Assembly (NCBI RefSeq): GCF_004799345.1
Contig: NZ_SSMC01000001.1
Span: forward strand, 930,001-994,000
DNA from: Robertkochia marina
Lineage (GTDB): Bacteria; Bacteroidota; Bacteroidia; Flavobacteriales; Flavobacteriaceae
Reading direction: 5' to 3'
DNA: 64,000 nucleotides
Part shown: positions 53,416-55,657 of the stretch, in pieces
Position numbering within the stretch: the stretch's first letter is position 1
Layout of the letters: every line of letters starts with the position of its first letter
Made by a program: the position numbers and the translations under genes
Notes under the pieces: model-generated
Database searches by the model: none
What the model was told of the DNA's origin: nothing
What the model saw: the letters and a program-made list of their open reading frames with translations, nothing else

Positions 53416-54555
53416 ATGGCAACAGATACATCATCATTAAATTTAAATAAGGAAGTAGAAACAGCAGAAGATTTTCTGCCGATTCTGGGAACAGATTACG
53501 TTGAACTTTATGTGGGTAATGCCAAACAGGCAGCTCATTATTATCAATCGGCCTGGGGCTTTCAACCGGTGGCCTATGCCGGTCTTGAAACCGGGATCAG
53601 GGATCGGGTTTCATATGTGCTGCAGCAAGATAAGATCCGGTTGGTATTAACTTCTCCCTTGCAAAAGGGAGGCGATATAAATCGTCACATCAATGAACAC
53701 GGTGACGGGGTAAAAGTGGTAGCACTTTGGGTTGATGATGCAACCAAAAGTTATGACGAAACCATAAAGAGAGGGGCCGAAAGCTATATGGAGCCTAAAA
53801 AAATTGAAGATGAGAACGGAGAGGTCGTACTATCAGGAATACATACCTATGGTGAGACTGTTCATATTTTTGTGGAGCGCAAGAATTACAACGGTCCGTT
53901 CATGCCCGGATTTAAGAAATGGGATCCTGAATATAAGGCTCCTGAAACCGGCCTCAAGTATATTGACCATATGGTTGGGAATGTAGGCTGGAATGAAATG
54001 AATAAATGGTGTGAATTCTATGCCAAGGTCATGGGATTTGCTCAGTTAGTGTCATTTGATGACAAAGACATTTCTACAGAATATACAGCACTTATGAGTA
54101 AGGTGATGAGTAATGGGAACGGCCGTATTAAGTTTCCTATTAATGAGCCTGCAGATGGACGTAAGAAGTCACAAATTGAAGAGTATATTGACTTTTATAA
54201 TGGTGCCGGGGTGCAGCATATTGCCGTTGCAACCGATAATATTATAGAAACTGTGAAGGCATTGAAGGCCAGAGGTGTTGAGTTTCTTTACGTTCCTGAA
54301 ACTTATTACGATACTGTGCTTGATCGCGTCGGTGAAATTGATGAAGATCTTGAGCCGTTAAAGGAGCTTGGAATTCTGATCGACCGCGATGACGAGGGGT
54401 ATCTTCTTCAATTATTTACGAAGCCTGTTTTAGACAGACCGACCATGTTTTTTGAGATCATTCAGCGAAAAGGAGCTAAATCGTTCGGAAAAGGAAACTT
54501 TAAAGCCCTTTTTGAAGCTATAGAACGTGAGCAGGAAATGCGAGGTACATTATAA
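53416..54555 (+). CDS. hppD: 4-hydroxyphenylpyruvate dioxygenase
   Basis: This 379-residue non-haem iron enzyme of two vicinal-oxygen-chelate domains converts 4-hydroxyphenylpyruvate to homogentisate. The iron ligands are visible: His in YIDHMVGNV, His in VQHIAVATDN and Glu in MFFEIIQRKG. Also present are the SPLQKGGDIN loop and the C-terminal KGNFKALFEAIEREQE helix that closes the active site. It follows hmgA on the same strand with a 111-bp gap in which no terminator is seen, so the two are probably one tyrosine-catabolic operon. Confidence 0.96.
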   Translation: MATDTSSLNLNKEVETAEDFLPILGTDYVELYVGNAKQAAHYYQSAWGFQPVAYAGLETGIRDRVSYVLQQDKIRLVLTSPLQKGGDINRHINEHGDGVKVVALWVDDATKSYDETIKRGAESYMEPKKIEDENGEVVLSGIHTYGETVHIFVERKNYNGPFMPGFKKWDPEYKAPETGLKYIDHMVGNVGWNEMNKWCEFYAKVMGFAQLVSFDDKDISTEYTALMSKVMSNGNGRIKFPINEPADGRKKSQIEEYIDFYNGAGVQHIAVATDNIIETVKALKARGVEFLYVPETYYDTVLDRVGEIDEDLEPLKELGILIDRDDEGYLLQLFTKPVLDRPTMFFEIIQRKGAKSFGKGNFKALFEAIEREQEMRGTL

Positions 54556-54641
54556 ATGGCTCTTTTTTATAGCAAAATAGCAAGCAAACACTTTAATTTA
54601 TAAAGAGTTTACAGCAAATGCGTTAAACTTTACTGCCGGGG

Positions 54642-54671
54642 TTTTGCAATTAAAAACCTGTAGTATATTTG
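54642..54671 (+). promoter_or_regulatory. Consensus Bacteroidetes promoter with no protein gene close behind
   Basis: TTTTG (54642-54646), a 17-bp spacer, then TATATTTG (54664-54671) fits the -33/-7 consensus in both boxes and in spacing. Initiation would be near 54677, the first base of a hairpin. The next protein start is 180 bp further on, beyond a strong terminator. Confidence 0.75.
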
Positions 54672-54676
54672 CACTC

Positions 54677-54778
54677 GCAAAAGCGGGTGGTGCCCTTTTG
54701 CTGACTTTAAGTAAAGTTTTCATAATTTAAAGTTTTTGGTTGGTTAATGGAAAAAGCCCGGCGTTCGCCGGGCTTTTT
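54677..54778 (+). ncRNA. Candidate small RNA of about 100 nt
   Basis: Between the consensus promoter and the terminator lies a roughly 100-nt segment with no open frame. It opens with hairpin 54677-54701: a 7-bp GCAAAAG/CTTTTGC stem extended by two G-C pairs past a bulged C, loop GTGGTG. A second small hairpin ACTTT/AAAGT (54704-54717) and a U-rich single-stranded part follow before the terminator. Promoter, structured 5' end and terminator at the right distances are the profile of an independent sRNA. I cannot match it to a named family. It could be a flavobacterial 6S-like or other regulatory RNA; the short, multi-hairpin form argues against classical 6S. Confidence 0.6.
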
Positions 54779-54779
54779 T
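54752..54779 (+). terminator. Very strong intrinsic terminator ending the candidate sRNA
   Basis: The A-run flanks the stem GCCCGGC/GCCGGGC with GTTC loop; the stem extends with A-T pairs to at least 10 bp and is followed by TTTTTTATTTT. It lies 197 bp after the hppD stop, far for an hppD terminator. Confidence 0.92.
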
Positions 54780-54853
54780 ATTTTGGTTTGGAATAATAAT
54801 TGTTTATTACTGCGTTAGCATCAGTATGTTACCGAATTTTTTATTTTTGCACC

Positions 54854-55657
54854 ATGTTCAGATACCTGCGATATAGTATTTTAGCAATCCTCTTACTCTT
54901 ACTTTCTGCTTTCGACCTGCAAGGAGAAGGTGCTGACAGCCCCAACAGCTTTCAGTCGGGAGAATGGTTTAGATTCCGAATTCATTTCGGATTTCTCAAC
55001 GCTAGTTATGCAACCCTTTCATTACAGGAAGAAAGGTTGAAGGGAAAAGAGGTTTATCATGTAGTGGGTAAAGGAAGCACCACAGGATTTGCCCGGTGGT
55101 TCTTTAAGGTAGATGATAATTATGAAACCTATTTTGATAAATATACCGGTAAGCCTTACCGGTTTATAAGAAAAATAGATGAAGGAGGTTATACTAAAGA
55201 TCTCGTGATCGATTTTAATCACGATGCGAATAATGCTTTAATAACCAATCGCAAACATAATACGAAAAGGATAATAGAAACCACAGAGGGGGTACAGGAT
55301 TTGCTCTCGGGTTTTTATTATTTGCGTAATAATTATGACACAGAGTCGTTAACTCGGGGAGACGAGGTTGTGATGGACCTTCTCTATGATGACGATGATG
55401 ATGTATTTAAGTTCAAGCTTAAATACCTTGGAAGAGAAGTTTTGCAAACCAAATTCGGAAAGGTAAGATGTTTGAAATTCAGGCCTTACGTATATTCCGG
55501 GAGGGTGTTTAAAGAAGAAGAAAGCTTAACGCTGTGGGTCTCTGATGATGAGAATAAGGTGCCGGTTCGAATTAAAGCCGACCTTATGGTAGGGTCTTTA
55601 AAAGCCGATTTAGATGCTTTTAAAGGATTGAAGTATCAATTTAAAATACTAATGTAA
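54854..55657 (+). CDS. DUF3108-domain secreted protein
   Basis: ATG 54854 gives 267 residues with a clear signal peptide (ending SAFDLQGEG). The 54800 ATG is rejected because it would add 18 residues before the signal. The mature protein is one DUF3108 domain, a beta-rich fold beginning SGEWFRFRIHFGFLNASYATL, with aspartate-rich YDDDDDVFKF about two thirds along. The domain is predicted to be periplasmic; its function is unknown, though a lipid-binding or envelope role is often suggested. It stops 2 bp before the tryptophan dioxygenase ATG, so they are probably co-transcribed. Confidence 0.85.
   Translation: MFRYLRYSILAILLLLLSAFDLQGEGADSPNSFQSGEWFRFRIHFGFLNASYATLSLQEERLKGKEVYHVVGKGSTTGFARWFFKVDDNYETYFDKYTGKPYRFIRKIDEGGYTKDLVIDFNHDANNALITNRKHNTKRIIETTEGVQDLLSGFYYLRNNYDTESLTRGDEVVMDLLYDDDDDVFKFKLKYLGREVLQTKFGKVRCLKFRPYVYSGRVFKEEESLTLWVSDDENKVPVRIKADLMVGSLKADLDAFKGLKYQFKILM

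Follow-up and report, generated by a model that had tools for sequence, protein, structure and literature searches.

The 64,000-nt stretch of the Robertkochia marina genome analysed here (contig NZ_SSMC01000001.1, positions 930,001-994,000, forward strand; hereafter the window, within which all coordinates are counted) very probably carries a stand-alone gene for a small RNA (sRNA) of about 103 nt at 54676-54779, a gene for which the sequence evidence is firm. We infer that it is transcribed and acts in trans by base pairing, and it would probably block the translation of its putative targets, the mRNAs of SusC and other exported proteins. The parts of the gene and of the RNA are as follows.

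54642-54646, + strand: promoter element TTTTG, -33-like, by direct reading
54664-54671, + strand: -7 box TATATTTG, 17 bp after TTTTG, matching the flavobacterial sigma-A consensus TAnnTTTG
near 54676, + strand: predicted transcript start, from the position of the -7 box
54677-54701, + strand: hairpin 1 of the predicted fold, stem GCAAAAG(C)GG/CCCUUUUGC, loop GUGGUG
54703-54734, + strand: hairpin 2 of the predicted fold, ACUUUAAGUA...UUUAAAGUUU, displaying UUUUCAUAA
54720-54722, + strand: CAU complementary to a start codon, in the loop of hairpin 2, by fold and sequence
54735-54749, + strand: tail UUGGUUGGUUAAUGG, unpaired in the fold and complementary to UUAACYAAYYAA leaders, by fold and relatives
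54750-54779, + strand: intrinsic terminator of 13 pairs, 7 of them G-C, followed by a T-run

In a DNA search of 60 relatives the element was found in all four genomes of the same genus, where 120-141 of the 166 query bases aligned at 92-94% identity. More distant genera had it too; all 60 gave some short match at E <=10, mostly just terminators, promoter boxes or leaders. A covariance model built from 8 sequences and applied with strict filters matched 124 of 397 Flavobacteriaceae genomes and 75 of 237 genera, a survey in which weak members may be missed and matches near E 0.01 may include chance ones. When the best candidates of each genome, at most 10, were scored, 117 of the 124 matching genomes had one copy, six had two and one had three. 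A DNA pattern run over the named genomes gave at least 80 loci, in Arenibacter, Maribacter, Zobellia, Allomuricauda, Kordia, Mesonia, Flavobacterium, Capnocytophaga, Robertkochia and others, and among the matches listed 79 loci were counted as sRNA, corresponding to 81 copies, which are the listed copies referred to below. Left out of this set was L270, an opposite-strand mRNA leader. It comes from a metagenome-assembled genome labelled Chlamydiota; the leader is of flavobacterial type and matches the complement of the sRNA, and its contig is possibly misbinned. Two overlapping samples were searched more widely: of 29 matches among 395 genomes from across the phylum, 28 fell in the Flavobacteriaceae, and of 36 among 296 genomes from across the order, 35 did so; the two matches outside had E values of 0.006 and 0.003. 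Within these two samples the RNA is, as judged by these matches, one that belongs to the Flavobacteriaceae.

For the RNA 54674-54780 the predicted folding energy is -39.3 kcal/mol (z -3.6), which none of 200 shuffles equalled. In an alignment of 60 copies, compensatory changes on both sides were seen in 16 of the 21 pairs of the whole RNA, with all 7 pairs affected in hairpin 1 and 5 of 10 in hairpin 2, which is near-invariant across the aligned relatives. The covariation score was 0.323 against 0.131 in shuffles, was not reached in any of 500 shuffles and was lost when the partners were slid. The size of this covariation is biased because the 60-copy alignment is fitted to the covariance model and its rows are related; in an 8-sequence MAFFT alignment not fitted to structure, both-side changes were found in 6 of 21 pairs, with five such pairs in hairpin 1. 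The stem of hairpin 1 is replaced between lineages with pairing maintained, and GTGGT of its loop (54687-54692) is present in 78 of the 81 listed copies and in 59 of the 60 aligned ones. A preliminary description of this locus, made from the letters alone, had proposed compensatory changes in the 54677-54701 stem as a check and would have given way if stem and promoter were unconserved in relatives; the stem covaries throughout and the promoter box recurs, as given below.

The most conserved and most informative part is, however, the 47 nt that follow the 5' hairpin (54703-54749, hairpin 2 and tail), which the preliminary description, with its attention on the 5' hairpin, leaves unmentioned. 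Among five species of the same genus, 46 of 47 columns of this core and 24 of 26 of hairpin 1 are invariant. The shares are lower elsewhere: the terminator has 16 of 30 invariant columns, the promoter 12 of 30, the sequence upstream of the promoter 16 of 86 and the DUF3108 start 8 of 57. TTCAT occurs in 60 of 60 aligned copies and GTTGGTTA of the tail in 58 of 60. When two probable Flavobacterium copies were folded, CAU was again found in the hairpin 2 loop, on a different stem. The helix of the terminator is likewise retained in relatives despite an altered stem sequence. Together with the + strand ORF scan given below, these data point to a conserved RNA structure without a reading frame. 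Divergent copies were also observed: three from Flavobacterium (L215, L241 and L260) have no GUGGU loop and differ in their 5' part while retaining the anti-start loop and the tail, and the Capnocytophaga-like genome G027 has three dispersed copies (L008, L102 and L103) in which the second hairpin is divergent (ACUUCAAAUAAUAGUUUUCAU).

The sigma-A consensus of flavobacteria is given as TAnnTTTG at -12 to -5 (PMC9723704), and direct reading recovered the boxes TTTTG and TATATTTG 17 bp apart and the hairpin from 54677 just as originally described. The pattern TTTG-N16-20-TANNTTTG occurs three times in the window against 1.55 expected, and at least three times in 20 of 100 shuffles; taken alone, the promoter match is within chance and not significant. 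What makes the promoter convincing is the conservation of the box upstream of homologous copies: strict TAnnTTTG precedes 64 of the 81 listed copies, 39-50 nt before the TTTTCATAA core (4.1% in random 60-mers), and a looser box precedes 79 of 81 (21% in random 60-mers). The terminator had been called the strongest in the window, and it has indeed the most G-C pairs (7) among the terminator-like matches listed in five scans covering the window. The sRNA gene thus appears to own both its promoter, as a conserved box, and its intrinsic terminator.

The reverse complement of the core 54703-54749, TTAACCAACCAAAAACTTTAAATTATGAAAAC, has the form of a flavobacterial start region, in which a leader is followed by ATG and a codon for Lys. 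Pairing was compared between start regions in the R. marina genome, with 365 open reading frames (ORFs) from 464 kb as the background, which possibly includes transporter genes, and with transporter loci examined besides. The 14 SusC starts paired with a median of -21.2 kcal/mol versus -16.3 for the background (p 0.0013) and a shuffle z of -1.70 versus -0.02 (p 0.0008, both two-sided). Stronger pairing than in the background was also found for 25 genes that are TonB-linked or have carrier domains (p 0.006), and SusC starts likewise paired better than 131 background genes with signal-peptide-like starts (one-sided p 0.0021). The best SusC pairings, L054 (-31.8, z -4.6) and L047 (-31.1, z -5.0), beat all 365 background ORFs, and their predicted duplexes cover the start codon. 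SusC genes at C1:1307585-1309123 and C1:275776-278841 are the best target candidates of this genome. Lipoproteins and some cytoplasmic enzymes are among the best-scoring background ORFs. A looser 17-mer search of the same genome gave 8 other sites in mixed genes, some off the start and of no clear class, including ORFs that by eye are HU, uracil phosphoribosyltransferase-like and acetolactate synthase-like. TAACYAAY was present in 6 of 365 background leaders against a permutation mean of 3.23, no clear enrichment.

In a relative, genome G239, pairing again favoured SusC, with 30 SusC starts pairing better than 16 other ORFs (p 0.013 by energy, 0.026 by z). The motif TAACYAAY-N4-20-TTATGAAA had 68 sites in 14 sRNA-bearing genomes versus 27 for the reversed pattern, 14 of the 68 being the sRNA itself. 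There were 53 motif loci other than the sRNA, of which 38 had an ORF of at least 40 aa and 12 were SusC, and 6 of the 9 distinct motif sites in G239 were SusC. All 10 motif-site SusC genes that were scanned match TIGR04056 at E 1e-87 or better, 6 of them below the full-length cut-off because the sequences were cut to their first 450 residues; the scan left out L396 (the same as SusC locus L323) and L401, which was assigned by eye. The SusC leaders of G239 contain TAACYAA in 13 of 30 cases and TAACYAAY in 8 of 30, compared with a mean of 0.92 over 840 letter permutations, 5 of which reach 8 (TAACYAAY itself included, and some being shifted forms of the same motif). TTAACYAA was found in 12 of 30 SusC leaders of one relative. 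An exact-leader search of 199 genomes gave 25 sites, 15 in the sRNA and 10 in other genes, against one for the reversed pattern, too few to test; the 10 genes have by eye mostly exported or transporter products, one of them SusC. A strong start-region-like leader (TTTCCAACTAACCAACCAAAAAAATTAAATTATGAAC) was also seen at L017 (G035:C17:45488-45523) before a 31-codon ORF, possibly a leader peptide.

The mechanism proposed is that the hairpin 2 loop UUUUCAUAA would pair with the start codon region UUAUGAAAA of a target mRNA, while the tail UUGGUUGGUUAA would pair with the UUAACYAAYYAA leader upstream of the start codon, so that UUUUCAUAA and UUGGUUGGUU are the candidate pairing segments. Pairing over the loop and tail sites would keep ribosomes from initiating. 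Start regions in Flavobacteriaceae are largely without Shine-Dalgarno sequences, and for this reason coverage of the AUG and leader could be an effective block. The preferred targets would be mRNAs of SusC/RagA TonB-linked transporters and of other exported or membrane proteins, and the outcome would probably be that the output of nutrient-uptake proteins of the outer membrane is shut down. As for hairpin 1 with its GUGGU loop, it probably serves at the 5' end to stabilise the RNA or to bind a protein.

Several observations weigh against this mechanism. In R. marina the only near-perfect site with up to 3 mismatches is the sRNA locus, several SusC genes pair at or worse than background level, the tail alone does not separate SusC leaders from background (one-sided p 0.20), and the target start positions used were guessed as the first ATG. 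TAACYAAY was found in 1 of 14 SusC leaders, which 147 of 840 permutations equal, and because the leader motif is rare there the case is weakened in this genome; its target evidence is moderate. Across the 14 sRNA-bearing genomes, with the sRNA sites removed, the motif excess is uneven: the motif outnumbered its reversed control in 10, equalled it in 2 and was outnumbered in 2 (G399 with 1 vs 4 and G343 with 5 vs 8). The complementarity may in part be a general start-region consensus, and the GUGGU loop, for which no partner was found, is left unexplained by pairing.

It is from that loop that the best-surviving alternative draws, namely that the stand-alone RNA is real and acts via a protein or the ribosome, whether as a translation factor, a protein sponge or a 6S-like RNA, and resembles a start region only by coincidence. 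The GUGGU loop is constant and the hairpin 1 stem variable, which suggests a partner that is not an mRNA leader, and the moderate target evidence in R. marina also speaks for one. On the other hand UUCAU (60 of 60 aligned copies) and GUUGGUUA (58 of 60) are kept as sequence and match the start regions of exported proteins, SusC foremost in the SusC-rich relative, and we regard action through a protein or the ribosome as rather unlikely.

The remaining alternatives concern the features next to the sRNA gene and the tandem copies of relatives, given here with positions in the window or in the locus named.

53416-54555, + strand: hppD (4-hydroxyphenylpyruvate dioxygenase), upstream neighbour, Pfam PF00903 and PF14696
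54598-54723, - strand: 41-aa ORF overlapping the sRNA and starting at the complement of CAU, judged not to be a gene
54787-54806, + strand: -24/-12-like element TTTGGAATAATAATTGTTTA, conserved, putative promoter of the DUF3108 gene and a separate unit
54854-55657, + strand: DUF3108 protein gene, downstream neighbour, Pfam PF11306 (E 1.1e-57), start codon ATG at 54854
L101, 1202-1304 and 1521-1625: tandem sRNA copies
L112, 1326-1435 and 1608-1717: tandem sRNA copies

Between the end of the hppD stop codon (54555) and the promoter lie 87 bp, and between the terminator and the DUF3108 ATG 75 bp, in agreement with the spacing reported previously. DUF3108 is downstream on the same strand within 700 bases at 73 of 76 evaluable listed loci, as would be expected if the RNA were the 5' leader of that gene, or an attenuator with a conditional terminator. 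This is nevertheless improbable because copies with opposite-strand flanks and tandem copies exist. In G027, L102 lies between two opposite-strand genes and L103 has an opposite-strand gene downstream, as has the Kordia-like L112, and both neighbours of L116 are on the opposite strand. L008 (G027) and L258 precede a different gene, named by eye as phosphate-transporter-like. Tandem copies were found in Cerina (L238, L101), Kordia (L202) and the Kordia-like L112, with box and terminator for each copy, and in Kordia L243 and in L112 the sRNA comes after a tryptophan dioxygenase-like gene (by eye; dioxygenase also by tblastn). The flanking genes are unlikely to explain the RNA, in line with the preliminary description. 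Also against a leader is the separate conserved box between the terminator and DUF3108, which reads TTTGGAA(T/C)A...TTGTTTA with a GG-to-G spacing of 12; strict TGGAATA-N4-6-TTG follows 38 of 79 listed copies, and TTGGAACA variants are visible at many others. From this spacing we take the box to be a putative -24/-12 (sigma-54) promoter, which suggests that the DUF3108 gene is in the sigma-54 regulon in many Flavobacteriaceae. PMC9723704 reports that in Flavobacterium psychrophilum protein quality control, envelope stress and exported proteins come under the sigma-54 regulon.

Just as improbable is an sRNA cut from the hppD transcript or forming its 3' end. hppD is upstream on the same strand at 41 of 73 evaluable listed loci, but it is missing from that place at the other 32 while the sRNA stays, few columns are invariant between hppD and the promoter (the 16 of 86 above), and the promoter box is found upstream of 64 of the 81 copies. 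That the - strand encodes the functional product, in the form of a leader peptide or small protein whose start is the CAU complement, is hardly credible, since the resemblance of that strand to a start region (TTAACCAACCAAAAACTTTAAATTATGAAAAC) and its 41-aa ORF are set against a frame that several other lineages interrupt by a stop after 5 to 8 codons, a hairpin 1 that covaries as RNA, and a promoter box and terminator on the + strand. The statement that no open frame lies here stood for the + strand, where an ORF scan between hppD and DUF3108 found no frame of at least 30 aa, and needs amending for the - strand, where the overlapping 41-aa ORF exists and its frame is lost in relatives.

The Rfam scan of the window gave no match at the gathering threshold. 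On 54540-54860 at E <=10 the best sub-threshold match by bits was rnk_pseudo, with 33.9 bits against a gathering threshold of 55. This and the other sub-threshold matches (MicC, BSnc120 and others) were rejected as far below gathering, and the alignments shown rest mainly on the terminator. The lack of an Rfam match at gathering, together with the conservation, the covarying stem, the promoter box, the tandem copies and the copies beside unrelated or opposite-strand genes, supports the initial view of an independent regulatory RNA of no named family. With its covariation and its sharply bounded conservation it could be proposed as an Rfam family.

Among degraders of algal and other polysaccharides the Flavobacteriaceae take a leading place, and SusC transporters provide a main route of uptake. 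If translational block of SusC mRNAs is correct, a conserved and usually single-copy sRNA with a built-in anti-start-codon loop would offer one point of entry to how uptake is controlled post-transcriptionally in many Flavobacteriaceae, a family that has been called understudied (PMC9723704). A wider possibility, which is tentative, is that of a global regulator: a usually single-copy sRNA with a generic complement of exported-protein starts could, with no RRM partner, set the output of outer-membrane uptake, including dozens of SusC and secreted proteins, and might be tied to envelope state via DUF3108 and its putative sigma-54-type promoter.

A literature search (titles and abstract starts, open-licence PMC texts) found no description of this sRNA. 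MicA/RybB-type sRNAs of enterobacteria share the trait of blocking translation starts of outer-membrane proteins, but are Hfq-dependent, sigma-E-driven and of another lineage. DonS-type cis-antisense sRNAs in polysaccharide utilization loci of Bacteroides are reportedly complementary to polysaccharide-uptake mRNA and encoded opposite their target, whereas the flavobacterial sRNA is intergenic and would act in trans. Flavo-1, an Rfam motif of Flavobacteriaceae RNA (PMC9723704), was absent among the 50 Rfam matches listed at E <=10 on 54540-54860. In the open-licence PMC literature covered, a mutant effect was described for just one flavobacterial sRNA, Rfp18 of F. psychrophilum, which is reported to affect metalloprotease mRNAs with pairing predicted via its third stem-loop (PMC9723704). 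Like the present RNA, Rfp18 is a conserved and strongly structured sRNA of Flavobacteriaceae; by its description alone it is set apart by the metalloprotease targets and the third stem-loop. One of the 85 Rfp RNAs of F. psychrophilum (Rfp1-89) could be the Flavobacterium homologue.

The closest comparison is with the FopS sRNAs of Bacteroides thetaiotaomicron, which are described as pairing near susC start codons and repressing translation; the FopS/GibS family has 12-15 copies per genome, each of 65-70 nt with a single-stranded 5' seed followed by a terminator, and an RRM-1 partner, RbpB (PMC11697453). By that description the two have in common a sigma-A-type promoter, an intrinsic terminator and, on the present predictions, pairing near the start codon and predicted targets rich in SusC-like transporters, the susC pairing being here a statistical enrichment that is uneven between genomes. 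In contrast to the multicopy FopS, the flavobacterial sRNA usually has one copy, as in R. marina, and its roughly 103 nt include two hairpins before the tail, with the second loop and the tail as the proposed seed. No RRM_1 (PF00076) match was found in the R. marina genome at E <=0.001, with Bacteroides ihuae positive as the control, and no FopS/GibS homology was seen among the Rfam matches listed at E <=10, the presence of FopS in that Rfam copy not having been checked. The sRNA may thus work like FopS, yet by copy number, architecture and length, and RRM partner it fails FopS membership. If this is true, it would suggest that pairing at susC starts was arrived at as a common solution by both Bacteroidaceae, with FopS, and Flavobacteriaceae, via differently built RNAs.
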